Below are positions 644 to 53,151 of a stretch of DNA of 64,000 bases, piece by piece. Positions within the stretch are counted from its first letter, which is position 1. Every line of letters starts with the position of its first letter. A program made the position numbers and the translations under genes. The notes under the pieces were generated by a model. It saw only the letters and a list, made by a program, of their open reading frames with translations, was not told the origin of the DNA and did no database searches. The DNA comes from Tupaia tana (Eukaryota; Chordata; Mammalia; Scandentia; Tupaiidae): assembly GCA_026018925.1 (NCBI GenBank), contig JAKSZU010000016.1, positions 60,021,575 through 60,085,574 on the forward strand, given 5' to 3'.

Positions 644-807
644 CTTCTCTGAGACGATCCCGCGTGCTCTTGCGGACACGGAGGCAGACTCGGACCTCCC
701 CAGCAGCCTGGTTTCTCACCACCTGTTCACTACACTCAAACACATTTCTTGCCACTTGTCTGGGTGTAAAGTCCATGGTCACGTCAACTCTCAGTACTGG
801 CTGGGAC
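644..807 (-). CDS. ITGAM: ITGAM exon 16, end of beta-propeller and start of thigh domain
   Basis: 164 nt, codons 613-667. The acceptor is a CAG just above 807 and the donor AGAAG|gtgag lies below 644. The exon completes the arginine codon split with exon 15, then reads SQPVLRV and MDFTPRQVARNVFEC, the linker into the thigh Ig-like domain. The text matches CD11b rather than CD11c or CD11d, and this exon is the best paralogue discriminator in the window. It ends in phase 1 after LRE. The next exon is not present in the remaining 643 bases. Confidence 0.95.
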
Positions 808-947
808 CTGTAAGGTCACCAGAGGACCATCAGGGAGCTTCAGACAGCAAAAACAAAAACAAAACAAAGAGCAACAATGCACACACACACACACACACAC
901 ACACTCCTTCAAGCAGAAACCTGCTGTGCTTCAAAAGGAATCCTCAC
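808..947. repeat. (CA)n microsatellite in intron 15
   Basis: Intron 15 is only 140 bp. It carries a CA dinucleotide run at about 879-903 preceded by an A-rich stretch. Confidence 0.8.
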
Positions 948-1078
948 CTGAGCAGTACTATACGCCCTTGAGCCCCCACAGCCAGGTCCGCCAGTCCATC
1001 CATCGTGAGGTCCTGGCCCCCGCTCAGTGACTGACCGAAGTACTGGAGCCCAAGAGCTAGCTGGGAGCCTGCAATGCG
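948..1078 (-). CDS. ITGAM: ITGAM exon 15, FG-GAP/calcium-binding propeller blade
   Basis: 131 nt, codons 570-612. It encodes [20 protein letters not shown] followed by [17 protein letters not shown], an FG-GAP blade with a DxxxDG-type cation loop (D-L-T-M-D-G-L-A-D). The acceptor is CAG above 1078 and the donor CTCAG|gtgag lies below 948. It ends with two bases of an arginine codon completed in exon 16. Confidence 0.96.
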
Positions 1079-1326
1079 CTGAGAGTGGAAAAGAGAAGGA
1101 GAAAAGGGGAGCAAGAAAGAATCGGGAAGTAGGTAGCTCATTCATCAAAGGTGACCCGGGTCGAGGTGCTCTGTGGTCACACGAGTCTCATCTCCCACAG
1201 CTTATCAAGGAATTAGGCAACTTAGACTTTAACAAGGACTTTTTCATTTTTAGACCAGACCACATCCTCAAGATGATAATCAACTTTTACATGAAGTAAC
1301 ATGAATTTCGAAAAGTTTTACGGAGA

Positions 1327-1572
1327 GCCAGCCAGTGGAGTGGTCGTTAAGGCAGCCAGATCCCACATGGCCAGCTGCATGGTTCAAGTCCCAGACCTGG
1401 CAGTTTGAGAAACACACTAGGTGCATGTGCGTGCACGCCTAAAATCCCCAGAGGAGAACAGAGGAGAAGGGATTGCGGTGTGGCCATCCCCCCTGGGGAG
1501 TACTTTCTCTCTCTCTCTCCATCTCCAATGAGTACATGAGCCCCCACAGCAAAAACTAAAAAAGAAAAGAAA
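1327..1572 (+). mobile_element. SINE-C copy
   Basis: The head has GTGGTCGTTAAGGCAGCCAG and a B-box-like GGTTCAAGTCC. The body and a CT-rich 3' part follow, ending in an AAAAGA-rich tail. It lies in intron 14. Confidence 0.8.
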
Positions 1573-2251
1573 AGAAACGTGATTTTAAACAAAAGTTCAA
1601 GCTTTGGTGGTATAACAAGTAGCATACTAAACTGTAGTGCGGAAGCCACATGGCTGACCACGGGTTCAGACAAAAAAAATGTTAAAAATAACTGTAACTA
1701 TAAAAATATGTTAACAGACACACAATATTAATACACGTAAATTGTGAACCAATAGCACTAGGCGTGTGTTCCGGGGAAGGTAAGATGTGGAGTACATGCA
1801 ATTCAAGGGAAGTTGTTGTCAGCTTAAAGAGACCATTATAAGATATTTCACGTGGGTCCCATGGTAGCCACAAAGAAAACATCTTTAGAAGTCATACAAA
1901 ATCTTTGGTGCTATGGCAGAGAGAAGCAGGAAGGACTGCAGGTGCATATGTAGGGACAGAGAGAGATTTGAAAGCGACCGACTCTTCTCTAACAACCCAC
2001 TCTCACAGGGACTCGGGAAAACCGAGGCTGCCTTAATCTGCTCATGTGGGTCCCGAACACTCCATTAGGCCCCATCTCCCTAGACGGCCACACTGGGGGT
2101 CAAGTCACAATGCTCAAATCAGCAATAGCAATAAACACCTGCATTTAAAGAAAAGAATCATCTTAAATAAACAACCAAGTTTTATACCTCAAGGAACTAT
2201 AAACAACCACCATAACAACAACAACAACAAAACAGTTGAAACCCTAAGTTA

Positions 2252-2345
2252 GCTGGCTGAGGCTGGAGCGTGGATCACAGCGTTAGGGGTTCTCGCTCTC
2301 TCTGCCCCTCTCACTCATGGAAGAAATAAGTAAATAAACTTTTTA
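2252..2345 (+). mobile_element. Degenerate short SINE remnant
   Basis: A tRNA-like head remnant, a CT-rich segment and an AAATAAGTAAATAAAC tail are visible. The B box is lost, so family assignment is uncertain. Confidence 0.4.
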
Positions 2346-2376
2346 AATAATTTTTATTTTTTATAAGACACTGTCA

Positions 2377-2645
2377 GGCCAGCCCCACAGCTCAGTGGTT
2401 AAGTGCTGCATGTTGGGACCAAGATCCCACGTGGCCAACTGCAGTTCAAGTCCGGGCTCCAATGCCGTGAGGACATGTTGAACATACGCACATGCATTAT
2501 AATATCCTGATAGGATGGATAACTGGAAGAAAAAGGATTGGGGCATGACCAGCCCCATTAGGAGGTGCTTTCTCTCTCTCTCTCTGTCTCTGGTGAGTGC
2601 ACGTACCCTGTAGTAAATAAATAAATATTAATTTGTTTTACATTA
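2377..2645 (+). mobile_element. SINE-C copy
   Basis: It starts GGCCAGCCCCACAGCTCAG, has the B-box-like AGTTCAAGTCC and a CT run, and ends in AAATAAATAAAT. Confidence 0.8.
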
Positions 2646-2649
2646 AAAA

Positions 2650-3136
2650 TAAAAAAGGCAAAGCCTATGGCCTGGTGGTTAAGCCAGCTGGATTCTACAT
2701 GGCTAACCACACGGTTTGATCTCCAGACCTGGCAGGTTGAAAAATACGCAGGGTAGCAGCTGGCAGATGGTGTAGTTGCTATGTCACTGGACTCCTACGT
2801 GATTGGCTGTGGTTCAAGACCTGGACCCAGTGGCTTGGGCTTGAACTCACACCAGACGTGTGTGCGTGCATGCCCAGGATCTGGGAGGTGATTGGAGGAG
2901 AAGGGATTGCAGCTTGGTCATCCCTCCTGGCAGATGATTTCTCAATTTCCCTCTCATTGTCTCTCTCTCTCTCTTTCTCTCTGGCAAACGCAAACACCCT
3001 AATGCAAAAATCTCTACCACAAAAAAAAAAAAAAAGAAAGAAAAATAAGCAGGGTGAACTCCTGACAGGAGAGAAATGGAGGAAAATGGAGAAAATAGTA
3101 ATGATGTGACCATGCCCCATTAGGGAGTTTTCTTGC

Positions 3137-3192
<56 letters not shown>

Positions 3193-3235
3193 CAACACAT
3201 GTGCACTCTGGCAAATTTTTTTTAATTAAAAAAAA
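2650..3235 (+). mobile_element. SINE-C split by a younger SINE-A
   Basis: The outer copy runs 2650-2752 and resumes at about 3046-3235, with a 45-bp CT microsatellite near 3140-3187. The copy between them (2753-3045) is a SINE-A. The break is marked by a short repeat of the target (ACGCAGGGTA before, AGCAGGGTGA after), so the relative ages can be read directly. Confidence 0.75.
2753..3045 (+). mobile_element. SINE-A nested in SINE-C
   Basis: Full-length head, body and poly(A)-rich tail, inserted inside the older copy around it. Confidence 0.8.
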
Positions 3236-3646
3236 AGACAAGTGTTGGCAAAGATGTGGAGAAACTGGAACCTTGCACACTGTGGGTGGAAAAGCAAAAT
3301 GGTGGATTCCCTATGGAAAATAGTAGGGAAGTCCCTCCAAAAAACTAAAAATATAGCTACCCTCTGACCCATCAATCCTACTTCTGGATATTTACCCAAA
3401 AGAATTAAACCAAGACAGTGTGCAGTCCTGGGGTCTACTCGGAAAGACATAGAAATAGTGTTTCAAGGGAGATAGCCTTGTTGGTTTTGACTGGATATTC
3501 ATATAAACGTTTTAAAGGGATGAGCGATAGAGTTAACCCTTATCTGTAAGTTTTGAGTTTATATTGTTGCATTACATGTACAAAACCAAAACAATTTTTC
3601 CCTAAAAATAATTTTGGGTTTTGTGTGTGTGTGTTGAGGAATTGTA

Positions 3647-3712
3647 AAGAAAAGCAGAATGTTTCACCGGGCGTGGTGGCGCCCGCCCTATGGCAAGAAA
3701 AGCAGAATGTTT
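3647..3712 (+). repeat. 30-nt 7SL/Alu-like 5' stub between 18-bp direct repeats
   Basis: AAGAAAAGCAGAATGTTT occurs at 3647-3664 and 3695-3712. The 30 nt between begin with a sequence like the first 23 nt of 7SL RNA or an Alu left arm (CCGGGCGTGGTGGCGCCCGC). There is no poly(A) stretch at either side. Confidence 0.7.
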
Positions 3713-4231: not shown

Positions 4232-5721
4232 CTTTAGGTCAAATTTTAAAAAATCCTCATTTCTGGTGCCAGGAAAAAAAAAATCAGGATTTTTGAATAA
4301 ATATTAGCATACCCATTTTCATGTAGCACCATCCACAATATCCAAGATGTGAAAACAAACTTAAATGGCTACTCAAAAATGGATTATTTTAATGTGGCAT
4401 ATATAGTCAGTCATTTAGCCTTATGCAAGAGAGATGTATTCTATCATTTGTGACAACATGGATGAACCTGGAAGACATTATTCTAAGTGAAATAAGACAG
4501 TCAAACCAACATTACTCTCTTCCATTTACATGCATTATCTAACATAGGCAAACTTATAGAAGTAGAGAATAGAATGGTGGATGCCAGAGCTAGAGAGGGA
4601 GGGAGATGAGAAATTGCTACTTGATGGGTACAAAATTTCTGTTATGCAGGATAAGTAAGTTCTAGAAATCTGCCATACAACATTGTGCTGGTAGGTAACA
4701 ATACTAAACTGTACACTTAAAAATATGTTATGAGGGGCTGGAGATTTTGAGTGTTAACTCCTCCACGCTGGCTGACGTAATAAACAGTTCTCCTAATCTC
4801 TCTGAGGGCTGTTTCCCACTCCTCGGCATCTAGTTTTCTGCAACATTTTGGTGCATTGGCCAGGAAACAGAAGCAGACTGGCCCTTTGAGCCACCAATCC
4901 TAGGGTGTTTCTCCCCAGGATGGGATGGTCACTACGGTGTGGAGAGAGAGGCACACCCCCATCTCAGTGGGGGTGCCCGCCTCAAGGCCAAGCATTGCTG
5001 GATCACCAGACTCCAACTGGAGAGAAGAAACCACTCCTGAAACCTGTTGCATCAATCTTGGTCAACTCTGGTAATCAGGTAAGCCCCCGGGGATCTGTAG
5101 AGCTCTGGTCAGACCCACTCGATTTGCGTGGAAGAGGAGACCCGTACAATCTCCTTTGGTCGCAAGACCAGCAGTTAGGGCTCATCTGGTAATTGGCTGG
5201 TTCGTGGCCAGCTCTGGTAATCCGATGTGTATGGCTGGTGTGGGGAGGCAATGTATAACCTCTGAATGAATGTGAGTGTTTGTGCCGAGTGAATGTGTTT
5301 GTGGCTCCACGGCTTCTCCCTACAGAGCATGATTAGGTCTGTTTAACTGCGTTTCCGCGGTATCCACCGCTGGAATACCGAGAGGGTGGAACCCGGAGAA
5401 ACCGCTGTGGTCCTTCTGATTGCAGCCCTTGGCCCGAGGCCCTCCTGCAAAACTTGAACAAACTTATCCCCTGCACTGCCTGGCCTATTCAGCAGCGCCC
5501 CCAGGAGGCTGCACAGCTTCTGAGCCTCTGGGTTAAGGCCCACCCCCAGAAGCCGCCATCCCTCCAGAGTTTCCTCATGGATCACTTCCTCCAACCAGTG
5601 ATCTCCCGAGCCTTCTGGGAAGTGCAGGCTTTTGATATTCTAGGTATAGGCAAGAAAAAGTTAAAACCCACCTTCCTCGAGTATATAATTAAAAATTTCA
5701 AGAAAGAGGGTTACTCTATGG

Positions 5722-5902
5722 GGCAGGCAGGTGGCCTGGTGGTTAAGGCAGCTGGACTCCCACATGACTGACAGTGGTTTGAGTCCCGGACCTGGCAGCT
5801 TGCTTTCTCACTTTCCTTCTCTCTCTCTGTCTTTCTCTGGTCAACATCAATAAAATAAAATAATAAAAATAGTTACAATAAATAAAAATTTTTAAAAAGG
5901 GG
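5722..5902 (+). mobile_element. SINE-B copy
   Basis: It lies between similar flanks (AGAGGGTTACTCTA before, GGGGGGTTACTCTA after), so the target duplication is still readable. The tail is AATAAAATAAAATAATAAAAA. Confidence 0.8.
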
Positions 5903-6762
5903 GGTTACTCTAAAGAGTATTAATGTCAAAGTAACCCCAGGGAAATTGGTTCTTAAAACCCTAATATATGTATGAACTCATATATGTAATATGTCAGGTT
6001 ACATACTGACAAGGGTCCCATGCTGTGTATCTGTGTGGGGAAAAAAAAGGCCTTAAAGAATTCTATTCAATTTGGTTTATAAAAAGAACGCTCATACAAA
6101 TTAGTTTAAAAGCTTTTCAAGTTCATATAACTTTAGTGAAAGAGCTGGCTTTAAATGTTGTGAAAGAAAAAGATTAATAAGTGAACGTCTTCACAATTTC
6201 CAACATATATTTTGTCTAGGTTTTCATTGATCAAGCAACATCATGTTTATCTTAATATGGCTGGTTTAATGAAACAACTAGTATTTGTGTTGTGTGTTGC
6301 GTTTTACATATTGGATGTCTAACAGGGAAATGAATTCATGACTAGCTTTTTCTGGCTTTAGTTTTAGTGCTAACAGAAGATCTTTGACCTCAAAGTAACT
6401 CTTGGATGTTCACAGAAGGCCCCTGAGACATCCAAAAGGGAGATGTTAAACCAATCAGGATTATTGTTTATATGTTGGATACAAATGGAAAGCATTGTCA
6501 AATTAAGTAATTCTAATTTTCTTGGTATTATATTTAAGTTATATGTATAAATATGTTCTGTACTTGTATGTCTATATATGCATTGTTTCAAAATAATTTG
6601 AGATTCTCAGGAATTAATGGTAGGCTATTATGTTAAACTGGTATATATAGCCAAATTCCTTTGCCAGTTATGAATTTTTGTCAGAGCATTAACTATGGCT
6701 ATAATCTTAATGTGATGTTCTTAAGAAAATTCACAAAGAGGATGGAAAGAGAATGTACTCTT
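5903..6762. other. AT-rich stretch inside the ERV-derived insertion, unrecognised
   Basis: No reading frame, SINE or recognised LTR is visible here. By position it belongs to the insertion bounded by the 13-bp duplication. Confidence 0.5.
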
Positions 6763-7067
6763 ACAAGTACAGGTTTCTTTTTTTTTTTTTTTTTTTTTGA
6801 GAGGTTTTTCGCTATAGGGCGCGTGCGCTCGCCAGACAGACAGAGAGAGACATAGAGACAGAAAGCGAGAAATCACCCCCCAGGGGGGATGGTCACGCCG
6901 CAATCCCTTCTCCTCCATTCTCCTCTCGGGATCTTGGGCACGCACGCACACGCGCCCGGCGTGAGTTGTAAGCCACCGGGTCCGAGACGCGAACCGCGGT
7001 CGACTACGTGGGAGTCCAGCGACATAGCCATTACGCTAACTGCTGGTTCCCACAAGTACAGGTTTCT
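6763..7067 (-). mobile_element. Young SINE-A with intact target duplication
   Basis: Flanked by ACAAGTACAGGTTTCT at 6763-6778 and 7052-7067. The element keeps CpG-rich sites in the head (CGACTACGTGGGAGTCCAGC on the + strand) and is almost identical to the copy at 7649, which marks a recent subfamily. Confidence 0.92.
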
Positions 7068-7148
7068 AAAAAAATCTAATCATTAAAAAAAATATATGTT
7101 ATGAGGGATGATCTCATGTTGTTTTCTTACCATGATAAAAAATATTTA

Positions 7149-7350
7149 GGGGCCAGGTGGTGGCACAGTGGTAACACAATGGACCCACATGGGAACGGTT
7201 CTGGGTTCACACCCCAGGGCCTCCCTCCTGCCCAGTGTGTGTGCACGTCCACCATCCAGGCCAGCTGATGCTGGAGGAGACTGTGGTGTGAGCACCACTG
7301 CCTGGAGAGGGTCTCTGTCTCTCAATAAATAAATAATTAAATTTCTAAAA
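7149..7350 (+). mobile_element. SINE-D copy
   Basis: The head GGGGCCAGGTGGTGGCACAG has a B-box-like GGTTCTGGGTTCACACC. The body lacks the SINE-A 3' motif and the tail is AATAAATAAATAATTAAA. Confidence 0.65.
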
Positions 7351-7648
7351 AGTCTTAAGAAATAAAGAAAAATGTGAAGCTGAAATAGAGCCAGAGACCA
7401 GAGGCCAGAAGACCAGGTGGCCTCCACGGGCTGTGGTGGGAGAGAATGGGGCATAGGTGATGTGGGACCAAATTCCAAGGGTCCCTCCAAACAGTGGATT
7501 CTATATGGCAGGAAACGAGGCCCTGTCTTAAGGAAGAAACTAGTCATAGGGGCCAGGACTTCGAGTGACCAGCCATCTACATGAGCTGCGTAATTTGCAA
7601 GGGCCAGTGCAAAAGAATAATGCAAAAAATCTCTTATTCAAAAATGAC

Positions 7649-7935
7649 TGGGAACCAGCAGTTAGCGTAATGGCTATGTCGCTGGACTCCCATGTAGTCG
7701 ACCGCGGTTCGCGTCTCGGACCCGGTGGCTTACAACTCACGCCGGGCGCGTGTGCGTGCGTGCCCAAGATCCCGAGAGGAGAATGGAGGAGAAGGGATTG
7801 CGGCGTGACCATCCCCCCTGGGGGGTGATTTCTCGCTTTCTGTCTCTATGTCTCTCTCTGTCTGTCTGGCGAGCGCACGCGCCCTATAGCGAAAAAACCT
7901 CTCCAAAAGAAAAAAAAAAAAAAAGAAAAAAAAAT
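7649..7935 (+). mobile_element. Young SINE-A
   Basis: Full-length copy. The target duplication AAAAATGACT is seen before the head and after the mixed A/G tail. Confidence 0.9.
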
Positions 7936-8338
7936 GACTAAGAATTCAAGATGGCAATATCAGAGCATTAAACCAAGTGCAGGGCCCCTCTGAGAAAAGG
8001 GCCCTTTGTAACTGTCTGTGTCACGTGGCCACGATCATGCAAACCTGTACTGTTACCAGTTAGATAGGTTTTCTAGGATGTGAAAGGCTAAACCCAGAAC
8101 AGATCTGGGAAATCCAAGACTCTTGGTCACCCTACCAGAACTGAGATTCAAAAGAAAAGAATGGGTCACACCTCAACACTCCAGTTTGTAGTTTACAGTT
8201 TCTGGGCCTTAATCTATTCATCTGTAACACTGAGGAGGTAATGCCCTCACGCGCTTCCTTTCCGATGTAGAAAGAACTCATCCAGAACTCAGAGCTTCGA
8301 GGTTTCTGTGAAGTATGTGCTATTAGTTTTGTTTGTTT

Positions 8339-8560
8339 TTGTTTTCTATAGGGCACATGTACTCGCCAGGGAAAGTGAGAAACCACCTCCCCAGAGGGGG
8401 TGGCCTCATTGCAGTCCCTTCTCCTCCATTCTTCTCTTGGGATTTCAGGCATGCACACATATGTGCCTGGCTTGTTTTTCAAGTCAGCAGGTCTGGGACT
8501 TGAACCATGGAGTCAGCCATGAGGATCCAGCCACTTTACCACCATGCCACTGCTGTTCCA
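8339..8560 (-). mobile_element. SINE-A/C-like copy
   Basis: Minus orientation with a shortened 3' body. It ends 127 bp from exon 14. Confidence 0.75.
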
Positions 8561-8686
8561 TGCTACTATTTTTGTAGGTTCTGAAAGGAGTACTGGGAAA
8601 ACTGGCAGCTATAAAAACATTATCTTAGAGGGAGACTGATCAGCAAAGGGGCTACCGTCCTGACAAGGACAGTGACTTGGACTCAC

Positions 8687-40395: not shown

Positions 40396-41392
40396 ATGAT
40401 TTTCTTTTTCACTCTTTCTCAGCACATTTTCTTCTGCAGCTAGTTCTACTTTCATAACAACCAGACAGAAATGAATGTGTACTGGCAGAAACAGACAGGT
40501 GGAACAATGGAACAGAATAGAGTCCCCAGAAATAAATTCATATACAGTCAGCTGATTTTTGACGAAGAGTACCAGTCAATCCAGTAGGAAAAGGAAAACC
40601 TCTTCAGCAAATGGTGCTGGAAAAACTGGATATTTACCTACAGAAAGATAAATGTGAACCCCTACCTCTTACCATTAACAAAAATCAACTCAAGGTGGAT
40701 CAAAGATCTAAAATTAAGACCTCAAAGTATAAAACTGCTGCTGAAAAACACTGGGGAAACTCTGGGAGACACTGGGGTAGGCAAAGACTTCTTAATTAAG
40801 ACCCCCAAAGCACAGTCAATAATCCCCAAAATAGATAAATTGGATTACATCAGACTAAGAAGTTTTGCATGGCAAAAGACACAGTAATTAGTGTGAATCG
40901 ACAGCCCTCAGGATGGGAAACTATTTTGTAAATATTTGTGCCAGATAAGGAACTGATAACCAAAATACACAAGGAACTCAAGCAGCTGTCCAGAAAAAAA
41001 AATGATCAACCCTATTAGAAGATGGGAGAATGAGTTGAAAAAAACACTCTCTAAGGATGACATATGAATAGCCAAAAGGTATATGAAAAAATGTTCAACA
41101 TCTCTCATTTTAAGGGAAATGCAGATCAAAACAACAATGAGATATCACCTAACCCCAGTCAGACTGACTAAGATTTAAAAAAATAATAATAAATGATAAG
41201 TGCTGATAGGGGTGTGGTGAAAGGGGAACTCTCTTACACTGTTGGTGGGAATATAAACTGGTCCAGCCACTGTGGAGAACAATTTGGAGATTCCTGAAAA
41301 ATCTACAAATAGAACTACCATATGATCCAGCAATCCCACTCCTTGGTATCTACCCAAAGGACAGAAGAATTCTTTTTTTTTTTTTTTTTTTT

Positions 41393-41594
41393 ATCTATTT
41401 TTTTATTACATTGAATTACATACAACTTTACAGTGTATTACATTGCTTTTTCAAAAGGGAATGCCATGCATGTCAGTAAGTACAGAGACATTAATCTCCC
41501 CGCTTCAACATTCAATATCTTTCCTATGTTTCCCCCAATCATTATTATTATTTTTCTAATTATTTTTTATGATAAACATGATTTTTTTTTCCAA
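41393..41594 (-). other. AT-rich 3' module of the composite element
   Basis: In sense it runs into TGTAATACACTGTAAAGTTG and an AATAAAAAAATAGAT just before the poly(A). It is probably an L1-type 3' end that serves recognition and polyadenylation; I did not identify its L1 family. Confidence 0.5.
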
Positions 41595-41748
41595 TTATCA
41601 GATCATAAAGTTCCCAACAATAGGAAACGTAGACTGCACTCAGGGCTGGACCAAGGGTGGGTCTCGTGCAGCCCCGCAAATGTAGGTGAATCTCCATGGA
41701 ACACAGTTTCAGGAACGCGGCTCAGGAAAGCAGAGACGGCCATCAGCG
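41595..41748 (-). repeat. LTR-like module homologous to 52.60-52.77 kb
   Basis: The sense text aligns with the + strand at 52,596-52,768 over about 150 bp at roughly 70-75% identity by eye. Shared anchors are GCACGAGACCCACCC, a TGGAGA..CACCTACA block and AACTTTATGA..TG.TAATTG. The homology starts exactly where the VNTR stops. Confidence 0.75.
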
Positions 41749-43205
41749 GTTGCGGCACGCGGGGCAGATCCCGGCCACGGCCCGCGGGGGCAGAGCCCCG
41801 GCCACGGCACGCGGGGCAGACCCCGGCCACGGCCCGCGGGGGCAGAGCCCCGGCCACGGCCCGCGGGGCAGACCCCGGCCACGGCACGCGGGGCCGAACC
41901 CCGGCCACGGCACGCGGGGACAGAACCCGGCCACGGCACGCGGGGGCAGAGCCCCGGCCACGGCACGCGGAGCAGAGCCCCGGCCACGGCACGCGGGGCA
42001 GAACCACGGCCACGGCACAAGGGACAGAGTCCCGGCCACGGCACGCGGGGCAGAACCGCAGCCACGGCACGCGGGGCAGAGTCCCGGCCACGGCACGCGG
42101 GGCAGACCCCGGCCACGGCACGTGGGGGCAGAGCCCGGCCACGGCATGCGCAGCAGAGCCCGGCCACGGCACGCGGGACAGGGCCACGGCCACGGCACGC
42201 GGGGCAGAACCCCGGCCACGGCACGCGGGGCAGAGTCCAGGCCACGGCACGCGGGGCAGACCCCGGCCAAGGCACGTGGGGGCAGAGCCCGGCCACGGCA
42301 CGCGGGGCAGAACCCCGGCCACGGCACGCGGGGCAGGGCCCCGGCCACGGCACGCGGGGACAGACCCCGGCCACGGCACGCGGGGCAGACCCCGGCCACG
42401 GCACGCGGGGACAGGACCACGGCACGCGGGGGCAGACCCCGGCCACGGCACACGGGGCAGACCCCGGCCACGGCACGTGGGGACAGGACCACGGCCACGG
42501 CACGCGGGGGCAAGCCCCGGCCATAGCACGCAGGGCAGAGTCCCGGCCACGGCACGCGGGACGGGGCCCCGGCCACGGCACGTGGGGCAGAACCCGGCCA
42601 CGGCACGAGGGGGCAGACCCCGGCCACGGCACACGGGGCAGTCCCCAGCCACGGACCGCGGGGACAGGACCACGGCCACGGCACGTGGGGCAGAACCTGG
42701 CCATGGCACGCGGGGTCAGACCCCGGCCACGGCACGTGGAACAGAGCCCCGGCCTCGGCACGCGGGGCAGAGTCCCGGCCACGGCACGCGGGGCAGAACC
42801 CGGCCACGGCACGCGGGGGCATACCCCGGCCACGGCACACGGGGCAGAGCGCGGCCACGGCACGCGGGGCAGAGCCCCGGTCGGGCCGGACCTCCGGATA
42901 GGGCATGCGGAGCAGAGCCCCGGCCACGGCACACGGGGCAGACCCCGGCCAAGGCACGCGGGGCAGACCCCGGCCACGGCACGCGGGGCAGACCCCGGCC
43001 ACGGCACGCGGGGCAGAGTCCCGGCCACGGCACGCGGGGCAGACCCCGGCCACGGCACGCGGGACAGACCCCGGCCAAGGCACGCGGGGCAGACCCTGGC
43101 CACGGCACACGGGGCAGACCCCGGCCATGGCACACAGGACAGAGCCCCGGCCACGGCACGTGGGGCAGAGCCTGTCGGGCCAGACCTCCAGACAGGGCAC
43201 GTGGA
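41748..43205 (-). repeat. GC-rich VNTR, about 25-bp unit, about 58 units
   Basis: On the + strand the unit is GGCACGCGGGGCAGACCCCG plus GCCAC, with 24-26 bp variants (an extra G, GAG for GAC). A different segment (TCGGGCCGGACCTCCGGATA and a similar copy) interrupts near 42,877 and 43,174, about 297 bp apart, suggesting a higher-order duplication. Every unit is CpG-rich. 43,206-43,320 continues as irregular GC-rich sequence. Confidence 0.95.
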
Positions 43206-43319
43206 GCGGAGCCCCCGTGCCCTGACCCCGCACCCCAGCACGTGGATTAGAGCCCCCGCGCCCGCCTCCCCACCCCCACGTGCCGGCACGCGGAGCGGAG
43301 CCCCCGCCTGCCGCCCCTG

Positions 43320-43812
43320 GACGTTTAATTGTATCTAGTACTTCTTGCATATTATTCTCAAAGTTTTGGGCCATTTTCTCAGACTTTATGGTGGACCTTT
43401 CTAGGCCAGCCATTTTCTCTTCTACATTAGAGATTCCATTTTCTGAATGATCTAGTCTGCTTTTAATACTTTCAAGGGAGATTTTGACTTCTTGTATTAT
43501 AGCCTTCATCTCTAACAGCTCCATCTGATTCTTTTGTAAAGTGTGAAACTCCTCTTTTAGATCTTGCATGAATTTCCTCACCTCCTAGAACTCTTCAACT
43601 CCTTTCTCCTTCCCCTTCAGCAGTTCCTTGTCTCTCTTCTCTTCGATCTCTGTTAGCTTTGCCATTATGAATGATCTGAATTGTTTATCAGACATTTCCA
43701 TGAATTCCCTTGAACTGTGTGTGGATGAAGAGGAGCTATCCGTTTCAATTGGAGGAGGGGCATTTTCCTGCTTCTCCATATTTCTTGTGGTCCTGCAGCG
43801 ATTTCTAGTCAT
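43320..43812 (-). pseudogene. L1 ORF1 N-terminal and coiled-coil segment, no RNA-binding domain
   Basis: An ATG at 43,812 opens MTRNRCRTTRNMEKQEN. The frame has a TAG stop at 43,587-43,585 and continues with a long heptad-rich coiled coil (QDLKEEFHTLQKNQMELLEM; SIKSRLDHSENGISNVEEKM). It breaks at VLDTIKRP, where other L1 ORF1 proteins enter the RRM. Beyond that the frame runs into the VNTR. The coiled coil would trimerise; the RRM and C-terminal domain are gone. Confidence 0.8.
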
Positions 43813-44304
43813 CTGGTGGATGGTTGGTTTCTTCCCAAACTTTTGAAGTTTAATATGAGGGTTGGGAAGTGTGCAGAAAAGGAAGCAGAGAGAGGGAAAC
43901 AATACCAACAACAACAACAACAAAAAACCAGACAAGAAACAGAGAAAAAAAAAGAGAAAAGCTTTGGAATAAATCTAAAAAAGAAAAATTAATATTAAAA
44001 AAATTTCAATAAAAATCAAAAATTAGAAAACCGCGCGGCGGAAATGTCTACATCTCAGGAGCCATTGAGCAGGCTTTCTCTTGAAGAAGGGCTGTTCTGG
44101 GAGGAGCAGAGGGGATTATTAACAAAACAAAGGCCTAGGAGGGAGGGGTCAAAGGGCCCTGTAAGAAGCCTCATCTTAAAAAATTCTAAAAAGCAAAAAT
44201 TAAAAAAAAAGACAGACAGACAGACAGAGAGAGAGAGAGAGTGAGAGGTAGAGAGATACAAAGATTGATTCAGAGACAGGAGATATGAAAGGGGTTTTCC
44301 TACC
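43813..44304 (-). promoter_or_regulatory. L1-type 5'UTR of the composite element
   Basis: Contains a partial 113-bp unit (44,044-44,097), then a 207-bp stretch (44,098-44,304) that is absent from the repeated monomers, with GA-repeat and T-rich parts. By analogy with rodent L1 it would be the tether between promoter monomers and ORF1. Confidence 0.6.
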
Positions 44305-44753
44305 ACGTGGGTTTTGTATGATGGAGGCCCAGTTAGGAGTGGGACATCTTCATTTCTCCCAGCATGTCTACATCTCAGGAGCCATTGAGCAGGCTTTCTC
44401 TTGAAGAAGGGCTGTTCACGTGGGTTTTGTATGATGGAGGCCCAGTTAGGAGTGGGACATCTTCATTTCTCCCAGCATGTCTACATCTCAGGAGCCATTG
44501 AGCAGGCTTTCTCTTGAAGAAGGGCTGTTCACGTGGGTTTTGTATGATGGAGGCCCAGTTAGGAGTGGGACATCTTCATTTCTCCCAGCATGTCTACATC
44601 TCAGGAGCCATTGAGCAGGCTTTCTCTTGAAGAAGGGCTGTTCACGTGGGTTTTGTATGATGGAGGCCCAGTTAGGAGTGGGACATCTTCATTTCTCCCA
44701 GCATGTCTACATCTCAGGAGCCATTGAGCAGGCTTTCTCTTGAAGAAGGGCTC
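44305..44753 (-). repeat. Four tandem 113-bp monomers
   Basis: ATGTCTACATCTCAGGAGCC recurs at 44,364, 44,477, 44,590 and 44,703, exactly 113 bp apart and nearly identical. They form the 5' end of the composite element, where mouse and rat L1s carry promoter monomers. Confidence 0.92.
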
Positions 44754-45221
44754 GACAGAAGAATTCTTAATCAGAAAAGTGCTTGCACATTGATGTTTAT
44801 TGCGGCACTATTCACAATTGCTAAGACATGGAGCCAACCCAAATGCCCATGAACAGATGAACAGATTGAAAAACTGTGGCACATATACTCTAGGGAATAC
44901 TACTCAGCCATAAAAAAACAAACTCAAACTCAACAAAACCCTGGCTTTTAACAGAAAGTGGATGAATATGAAAGATTTACTGCTGAGTGAAGCAAGCCAG
45001 GCTATGAAGGAGAGACATTGTATGTCTCCACTTAATATATACCGAGTGTTCGCACTCTATGACCAAAACTGAATGATATAAAAAGGGGTATAATCTGTAG
45101 AAGAAAACTTTATAGTATTATCAACTGGACTGGCGAGAAATGTACATGTTGGAATATTAATTCTGCAAGCTAAATAACATGATTGAATGTATAAATGAAC
45201 TTGAATTAAAATAAAAATAAA

Positions 45222-45530
45222 AGGACTAGCAGTTGGTGTAATGGCTATGTCGCTGGGCTCCCATGTAGTCAACTGTGGTTCGAGTCCCGGACACAGTGGC
45301 TTAAACTCACGCTGGGTGCATGTGCGTGCGTGTCCAAGATCCTGAGAGGAGACTGGAGGAGAAGGGGTTGCGACGTAGCCATCCCCCCGGGGGAGTGATT
45401 TCTCACTTTCTGTCTCTCTGTCTCTCTCTGTCTTTCTGGCATGCAGATGCACCCTTTAGCAAAACCTTCTCCAAATAAATAAATAAATAAAATAAAAATA
45501 AAGAAGTAATAATAATAAATAAAATTAAAT
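45222..45530 (+). mobile_element. SINE-A copy with long AAATA tail
   Basis: Head GGACTAGCAGTTGGTGTAATG. Tail of AAATAAATAAATAAAATAAA then AATAATAATAAATAAAATT. Confidence 0.85.
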
Positions 45531-51889: not shown

Positions 51890-52865
51890 ATCAGAGGTAT
51901 TTTCACAGGAGACTGGAGGAGTCCGACCCAGTGAGGCCCCAGGATCTGTCTGAGCCCCCCGCCCCGACCTTTGAGCTCTGCTTCCGGTCAGATTAACATG
52001 CTGGCAAGGCCACTGTTGTGCACCCCCTGACCTTGGAACAAAGCTTGGGTCAATTAGCATGTCAGCAACTGCTTGCTATTTGCTCCAGAAAACTGGTAGC
52101 CTTGCTGGGAAGCGACCCCCCTCTGACTCCCCAATTTACTACTATAAAAGAATTGCATAGCTCTCTTATACATCCTGAGTATATGATAAAATTTTCTAGG
52201 AACTCCCCTGACTGCTCCCCTTTGCTATAATCACCTACTATTAATTACAATGCTTTATCTCCATGGTCACAGTAGAGGGTGGGCTGAAGTTCTATCTAGG
52301 CAGAAATGGTCTTGACCTTTGGAAGGCCCTCCAAAATACATTTAAGGTAAACTTAATCCTTTCTTTATGTAAAATAGGATTAGGTCAAAACTGGCCCAGG
52401 ACCACCACCACCACCCCCCCCCCCCCCCGCCCTCACCAAGCGAAATAGATAAATATTTTAAGACTCCTCAAATCAAGTTTTAAATCCCTATAAAACTATG
52501 TAAGTATCATTCTTTATTAAGATCCATAAGAACTAATATCTATTCTTGAGATTTTATTTTCTCAGAGCCATTCCTGGTAATCACAAGATGGCTGCTGCAC
52601 CGCATCAGCTGATAATCATCTCTGCTTACCGGAACCACTTTCCCGAAACTGCATTCTATGGAGACCCACCTACAATTGAGGAAATGCACGAGACCCACCC
52701 CTTAATCCAACCCTGAATAGAATCTATGTTCCCTTTTGTTAAAAACTTTATGAGCTGGTAATTGAAACACTAGCCCCTCTCCCTTTATTTGCATGTAACA
52801 CATTTTCAATAAAAAGGCACGATGATTCCTAGCAGTTGTCACTCCTCAGAGAGCGATCTTAGAGG
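51890..52865 (+). mobile_element. LTR-like ERV segment
   Basis: AAGATGGCTGCTGCACCGC and a TTTGCATGTAACACATTTTC lead to an AATAAA at 52,809, then a short R/U5-like stretch. The upstream part (TTAGCATGTCAGCAACTGC) also looks LTR-like. No open viral frame. 52,596-52,768 is the part shared with the composite element. A 17-C run lies at about 52,410-52,428. Confidence 0.55.
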
Positions 52866-53151
52866 AGTGTCCAGCATAGGACGTGCATGAAAAGGCACCG
52901 AGGCCTCTGTCTTCTGTTCACCTGCACCGCCTCCGTCAAGATAACCCACCCACGCCGAGGCTGGTCCTCGGCAGGAGACAATACTGTCTTTCACACACAG
53001 TGTCTCTACTTCTCTCTACAAATCAATTCTGATCTCTCACGAATGACCAGTTTCTCCTACTTACTTATAATTGTAGTTTATACAGGTCCTCTCAAGCCCC
53101 AGATTTATATTCTGAGATTCAAGTATTATTTCCTACTGCTAACTGAGTGTC

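Follow-up and report, generated by a model that had tools for sequence, protein, structure and literature searches.

The window, that is, the whole 64,000-nucleotide stretch of DNA analyzed here, contains on its minus strand a 3,379-bp insert (41375-44753) bracketed by perfect 15-bp copies of GACAGAAGAATTCTT, at 41360-41374 and 44754-44768, with flanks that resemble L1 when judged by eye. The parts of this insert are listed in Table 1. The original prediction had described an insert of this size with a perfect target-site duplication, and its coordinates hold (15 of 15 bases are identical), as do the poly(A) tail of 18 nt, the L1-type 5′ monomers, which are four units of 113 bp identical to one another, and a GC-rich repeat that had been put at about 1.5 kb of 25-bp units. 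This variable-number tandem repeat (VNTR) extends over ~1.57 kb in the window copy, is 80% GC and contains 208 CpG, and its unit spacing, measured in 21 arrays, is mostly 25-27 bp.

Table 1. Features of the composite insert, in window coordinates, with the evidence for each.
Feature	Position	Strand	Evidence
Target-site duplication beside A tail	41360..41374		15/15 bases identical to 44754-44768
Poly(A) tail, 18 nt (T run on + strand)	41375..41392	-	Read from sequence
3′ UTR end of young autonomous L1, with AATAAA	41393..41572	-	181/200 identical to L043
A-rich linker between LTR-like piece and L1 3′ UTR	41573..41588	-	Gap between two alignments
LTR-like piece, about 165 bp	41589..41753	-	77% identical to window 52600-52767, in a comparison with repeats of this host only
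GC-rich VNTR, mostly 25-27 bp units	41754..43319	-	~1.57 kb array
L1 ORF1 5′ part, 493 bp, cut at ...DTIKRP	43320..43812	-	94.6% identical to ORF1-only L1 in L035
In-frame TAG, ORF1 codon 76	43585..43587	-	Common to 11/15 copies read
L1-type 5′ UTR	43813..44303	-	80.5% identical to L035
Facultative intron in 5′ UTR, 464 nt, GT...AG	43840..44303	-	Exactly missing from L017
Four 113-bp 5′ monomers, putative promoter	44304..44753	-	87-89% identical monomers in L035
Target-site duplication beside 5′ end	44754..44768		15/15 bases identical to 41360-41374

Both internal junctions of the insert recur in the host genome (2.95 Gb). The VNTR-to-tail junction, used as a 25-mer, has 551 exact matches and the ORF1-to-VNTR junction, used as a 27-mer, has 414, while the reversed patterns that served as controls have 0 genome-wide for either junction. 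With the 191-bp 5′ junction as a query, all 40 scored matches are full length, at 98-100% identity. The 20 copies that we fetched were drawn from those matching the window copy best, so their ages lean young. The complete order of parts is found in 13 of them, and in the other 7 the 5′ end lies inside the VNTR (5′ truncation). The VNTR ranges from 222 to 2194 bp across the 20, and the UTR and ORF1 of 15 copies diverge from the majority by 0-1.8%. On five contigs, 43 5′ junctions compare with 24 exact 3′ junctions pairing with them within 9 kb, two of which probably belong to neighbors. Among six copies fetched for want of a paired exact 3′ junction, five still have the tail, and the sixth (L033) is an internal fragment without it. 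Each junction is thus present several hundred times, in copies that differ in their flanks and in the length of their VNTR. This establishes a mobile, non-autonomous composite family of the kind originally predicted, and its junctions are by no means confined to this locus. The window insert very probably belongs to a young non-LTR retrotransposon family, composite and non-autonomous, of several hundred copies, the RNA of which would be taken up by host L1 proteins.

Judging by alignment, the 5′ end of the composite (monomers, UTR and 5′ part of ORF1) derives from an ORF1-only (HAL1-like) L1 family, for which 40 of 40 scored matches reach at least 98%. The source match, L035, resembles all three parts (Table 1), and another L1, in L016, has monomers upstream of ORF1 that are about 65% similar to those of the composite. 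It is this family that the 5′ half matches, not the L1 lineage supplying the 3′ end. The breakpoint in ORF1, placed from DNA alignments and the minus-strand open frame, falls in our domain map at the start of the RNA-binding domain, where the reading ends ...VLDTIKRPGAAGGG. The RNA-binding domains are absent from the composite, and the ORF1 piece runs into the VNTR and tail, with no ORF2, in the window copy as well as in all 13 complete copies. The element has neither the ORF2, with endonuclease and reverse transcriptase, that defines an autonomous LINE-1 nor the complete ORF1 that defines a HAL1, its ORF1 being cut and, in all 15 copies read, stopped no later than codon 76. As for the coiled coil seen in the original prediction, it is present in the DNA but has no joint translation with the N terminus, owing to the TAG at codon 76, and the claim that a trimerisation domain is kept has to be corrected, since the domain does not survive as a usable protein.

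These features also bear on whether the element is coding, with the ORF1 piece being translated, perhaps together with a basic tail encoded by the VNTR, and aiding its own mobilisation. A 612-aa open frame does run on the minus strand from within ORF1 across the VNTR, but it exists because the array is without stops. Of 15 copies read from the ORF1 ATG, 11 halt at codon 76 and the other 4 sooner, the frame that follows the stop ends at widely differing lengths among copies, and the RNA-binding domains are missing, which together make a coding element very improbable.

On its minus strand, L035 displays a second, older arrangement, in which ORF1 is cut about 140 bp earlier and is followed by another GC-rich array and a related LTR-like piece. 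We rejected this as an older subfamily: among 266 candidates, only 1 of the 40 scored matches, L035 itself, spans the junction, the other 39 covering only ~50 nt of ORF1. It is treated here as a singleton. The GC-rich zone of L035 aligns to the young VNTR with a local score of 67 (best of 100 shuffles, 43), its own repeat array gives a borderline 61 (best of 100 shuffles, 60), and its LTR-like piece and that of the composite share the same end point. The two arrangements may possibly share a related origin.

The 3′ module is itself composite. The last ~200 bp of the element, tail included, are identical to L043 (598-794) at 181 of 200 positions. The L1 version across the join has 815 genome matches with at most one mismatch, and at four of the listed L1 3′ UTR places a reverse-transcriptase match with an open frame of 1322-1343 aa is found 1776-1777 bp upstream. 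These alignments identify the AT-rich end as the 3′ UTR terminus of a young autonomous L1 of the host, and L1s whose ORF2 frames are long and open are present in the same genome. The original prediction of an LTR segment with an AT-rich tail is thus correct for the ~165 bp of LTR-like sequence but not for the terminal part, and we rejected an LTR identity for the whole tail because its end aligns to the L1 3′ UTR.

The copies bear the hallmarks of an L1-dependent non-autonomous retrotransposon, namely poly(A), target duplications and 5′ truncation. Target duplications of at least 10 bp, mostly with an A-rich start, are found in 18 of 20 copies vs 26 of 2000 control sites; L011 has no clear one, and in L024 an A/T-only duplication was overlooked by our filter. 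Moreover, L017 is without the 464-nt GT-AG intron, which is precisely excised, and the spliced junction (a joined 23-mer) has 27 matches genome-wide while its reversed control has 0. Loss of the intron in L017 and the recurrence of this junction support an RNA intermediate. Nine spliced places, on contigs with complete listings, could be checked against ORF1-VNTR junctions: an exact junction follows four of them precisely 512 bp downstream, four have none nearby, and one is at 802 bp. Because of the latter five, some spliced places may be spliced ORF1-only elements. That the copies spread at the DNA level instead, by segmental duplication or satellite-like expansion, is conceivable for an element with two tandem arrays (VNTR and monomers), one copy of which, L010, has an internal VNTR-tail-VNTR-tail duplication. 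However, target duplications, A tails, 5′ truncations and the 27 spliced junctions make this very unlikely. Mobilisation in trans by L1, which agrees with every hallmark seen, is the mode we infer for the family.

We propose the following mechanism. The composite would have been assembled through template switching or RNA recombination, giving the order of 5′ monomers, UTR with facultative intron, ORF1 5′ part, VNTR, LTR-like piece, L1 3′ UTR and poly(A). The 113-bp monomers most likely drive Pol II transcription, and the polyadenylated, sometimes spliced RNA would be captured by proteins of the host autonomous L1, which would copy it into target sites rich in A by target-primed reverse transcription. 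The family is presumably active today.

Since SVA and LAVA likewise combine a GC-rich VNTR with a piece of retroviral type close to the 3′ end, descent from that hominoid lineage has to be considered. A 52-nt Alu 5′ fragment has 0 matches at E ≤0.01 in the 363,794 bases of the window and fetched loci, which makes such descent unlikely. Furthermore, both ends derive from the host's own L1s, and the units, judged by size, are mostly 25-27 bp, not the 39-40 bp given in PMC4432496 for the ancestral units of SVA2. We therefore hold this descent to be very improbable as well. Weaker still, and practically negligible, is the reading that separate repeats were joined here by a single rearrangement or by an assembly artefact: every part does occur separately in the genome (ORF1-only L1, L1 3′ UTR, LTR-like repeat), but the exact junction counts of 551 and 414, against 0 for the controls, refute it, and 18 of 20 copies have target duplications of their own.

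VNTR composites are described as hominoid-primate-specific in the excerpts used of PMC7353768 and PMC4432496, and at the level of titles and abstract openings we found none in the literature outside primates; the main text of PMC12026660, on the African hedgehog, contains none of the terms VNTR, composite, SVA, monomer and tandem repeat. On balance, we favor the view that a VNTR composite resembling SVA arose independently in a mammal lineage that lacks Alu, as an L1 parasite put together from the promoter end of an ORF1-only L1 lineage, a CpG-dense VNTR, an LTR-like piece and the 3′ end of a second, autonomous L1. If so, such convergence would imply that the GC-rich tandem array has been selected as a functional part of L1-dependent composites, and that its presence in apes is no historical accident. 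Were there indeed a second origin, in which the VNTR differs, Alu is missing and both ends come from L1, one could test which parts render a composite a good substrate for L1 and what the GC-rich array contributes. In addition, the family scatters several hundred CpG-dense arrays across the genome. These differ in length, each may lie behind an L1-type promoter, and they may affect nearby genes and provide polymorphic markers.

SVA elements (SINE-R-VNTR-Alu) belong to hominoid primates, and their SINE-R, which is particular to SVA, derived from HERV-K10. Like SVA, our composite is non-autonomous, has a central GC-rich VNTR of variable length with a retroviral-type piece 3′ of it, and combines poly(A) with L1-type insertion hallmarks. 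In contrast to SVA, which begins with a hexamer and an Alu-like part, it begins with L1 monomers, UTR and ORF1, it ends in an L1 3′ UTR, and its units are mostly 25-27 bp vs about 35-50 bp as quoted from PMC5753468. The gibbon elements LAVA, PVA and FVA likewise join a VNTR to exchanged end modules, and LAVA too contains L1 sequence, but they have in common an Alu-like region and the hominoid VNTR (PMC4432496, in excerpt), neither of which is seen here. HAL1 (half-L1, ORF1-only) is represented in this host by the source family of the 5′ half; however, HAL1 encodes ORF1p according to the cited part of PMC5753468, whereas the ORF1 of the composite is cut and stop-bearing. Chimeric LINE-1 insertions, as outlined by Law and Burns (PMC13174262), also join L1 RNA to unrelated RNA, but in the human lineage, while here there is a family of hundreds of copies. 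The composite thus works like SVA and LAVA yet departs from them in the defining features tested, the Alu-like region and the VNTR unit size, and it appears to be an independently evolved equivalent of the ape SVA elements.

We searched the host genome (2.95 Gb in 1198 contigs) for both internal junctions of the composite, and both recur: the 25-mer spanning the VNTR-tail junction has 551 exact occurrences and the 27-mer spanning the ORF1-VNTR junction 414, while the reversed control patterns have none. The composite is a mobile family, not a single locus. When the 191-bp 5' junction was used as a DNA query, all 40 matches scored, of 1175 candidates, were full length and 98-100% identical. In the window, the original prediction of an insert flanked by a perfect 15-bp duplication on both sides was borne out (see the table). 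The VNTR of this copy is 80% GC, with a CpG observed/expected ratio of 0.84.

Features of the composite copy in the window, parts listed in sense order
Feature	Position	Strand	Description
Composite insert	41375-44753	minus	surrounded by L1-like sequence
5' end			four identical monomers of 113 bp each
5' UTR			between monomers and ORF1 part
L1 ORF1 piece			first 493 bp of ORF1
VNTR array			1.57 kb; units mostly 25-27 bp
LTR-like piece			~165 bp, 3' of VNTR
3' end			A-rich linker, AT-rich end, then poly(A)

The junctions were paired on the five contigs with complete lists for both, which hold 43 5' and 80 3' junctions. A same-strand 3' junction lies at most 9 kb from 24 of the 43; two of these pairs, 7.0 and 7.6 kb apart, are probably neighbouring copies, and the other 22 span 0.64-3.56 kb. 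We retrieved six of the 19 5' junctions left without a partner, and the tail is still present in five. The sixth, L033, is an internal fragment (sense orientation, ~1062-1298) with the end of the ORF1 part and the start of the VNTR, no tail or poly(A), and an 8-bp repeat, CCTAAGTC, on either end; perhaps this insertion began without the usual 3' start.

Twenty loci were chosen among the 40 matches that scored best against the window copy, so that this sample leans to young copies. Thirteen are complete (monomers, ORF1 part, VNTR and tail) and seven start within the VNTR, which is between 222 and 2194 bp long across copies; L019 also holds a second copy, truncated where the fetched sequence ends. 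Divergence from the majority sequence is 0-1.8% for UTR plus ORF1 in 15 copies (ORF1 only for L017) and 0-4.8% for the tail in 22. Duplications of at least 10 bp flank 18 of the 20 fetched copies vs 26 of 2000 control sites; L024 has a 14-bp duplication of A/T only, missed by the filter, and no clear duplication was found for L011. The duplications mostly start A-rich, matching expectation for the L1 endonuclease, whose site is described as TT/AAAA (PMC13174262). One copy, L010 (sense orientation, 5544-8627), carries an internal duplication, reading VNTR, tail without poly(A), VNTR, tail and a second time the tail's final ~75 bp. A short insert within the A tail, TTCAATAACTAC, is common to L009, L010 and L011, on different contigs, and suggests a possible common source copy or lineage.

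The 5' half of the composite resembles an L1 at locus L035, with identities of 87-89% in the monomers, 80.5% in the UTR and 94.6% in ORF1. This L1 continues past the breakpoint into the rest of ORF1 (ACGTCCAAACATCC vs ACGTCCAGGGGCGG in the composite). Since ORF2 matches within 742-3690 reach no lower than E 3.9, and the element terminates in its own 3' region, its sequence marks it as ORF1-only and HAL1-like. The ORF1-to-3' junction of this element is widespread, with all 40 matches scored, of 1711 candidates, at least 98% identical. The same locus holds an older chimera (7500-5200, minus strand), in which ORF1 breaks off earlier and is joined by another GC-rich array and a related LTR-like piece. 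Among the scored matches the junction of this chimera occurs once, and its GC-rich zone resembles the young VNTR unit.

The reading frame of the composite runs through ...VLDTIKRP into the VNTR, and in L035 the RNA-binding domain model starts at nt 1964, two codons before homology with the composite ends (1968). Of 15 copies translated from the ORF1 ATG, 11 reach their stop at codon 76 and four end sooner (after 21, 47, 72 and 72 aa), so the trimerisation domain proposed to be retained is not supported in a usable form. A 33-mer with Gln at codon 76 occurs 1143 times in the genome.

The 3' module had been noted to contain an LTR-homologous segment, which fits the LTR-like piece but not the last ~200 bp, where 181 of 200 positions are identical to the 3' UTR of a second L1 (L043/L045). 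The LTR-like piece shares 77% identity with a section of a dispersed repeat (window 52560-52974) that contains AATAAA and looks like a putative LTR. All 39 copies of this repeat scored among 3717 candidates, window copy excluded, match at 91-96%, and 37 stop at query position 413-423. In the L043/L045-type L1, ORF1 is open for 333 aa and includes both RNA-binding domains, and the reverse transcriptase lies within an open frame of 1343 aa. A pattern over the L1 side of the 3' join has 815 occurrences when one mismatch is allowed; of the 100 listed, four are found 1776-1777 bp downstream from reverse-transcriptase matches whose open frames are 1322-1343 aa long. This genome has recent autonomous L1s, since ~68 of 150 scored reverse-transcriptase matches have stop-free frames of at least 1250 aa (hand count). 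Two young L1s carry lineage-particular tandem 5' monomers, with periods of 129 and 222 bp in L044 and 158 bp in L045, both unlike the 113 bp of the composite. At L042 (~480-1170), a gene-like open frame, presumably resembling KIFAP3 and probably a processed pseudogene, is bracketed by two copies, in opposite orientations, of one L1 3' end.

L017, alone among the fetched loci, lacks element positions 451-914 (464 nt), a gap that fits a donor CACGTG/GTAGGA and an acceptor CTTCAAAAG/TTTGGG with one-base ambiguity. The joined 23-mer occurs 27 times in the genome (reversed control, 0). Nine of these places, on contigs with complete junction lists, could be checked against ORF1-VNTR junctions: four lie exactly 512 bp and one 802 bp upstream of an exact junction, and four have none nearby. 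Because spliced places recur at 512 bp, either spliced composite RNA was reverse-transcribed repeatedly or one spliced copy became a source. Part of the 27 may instead be ORF1-only elements that were spliced, as these have the same UTR. In the simplest reading, the 113-bp L1-type monomers would serve as promoter, the RNA would optionally be spliced and be polyadenylated at the L1-derived 3' end, and L1 would act in trans by target-primed reverse transcription. The chimera may have been assembled by template switching or RNA recombination.

Published descriptions confine SVA and the gibbon families to hominoid primates (PMC7353768, PMC4432496) and give HAL1s several separate origins within mammals (PMC5753468). 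Our literature search, at the level of titles and abstract openings, found no VNTR composite outside primates, and a catalogue entry may exist. The hominoid composites are reported to have ancestral VNTR units of 39-40 bp (PMC4432496), whereas those of the Tupaia composite are mostly 25-27 bp. They are also described as containing an Alu-derived region (PMC5753468), whereas a 52-nt Alu fragment gave no match in the 363,794 bases of window and fetched loci. Among short repeats in the window, a tRNA-like SINE of the host predominates (for example, 45240-45460), with 45 matches in 64 kb, query copy included. The composite acts like SVA but, given the lack of an Alu match, a host with its own SINE and units of a different size, is not classed as SVA.
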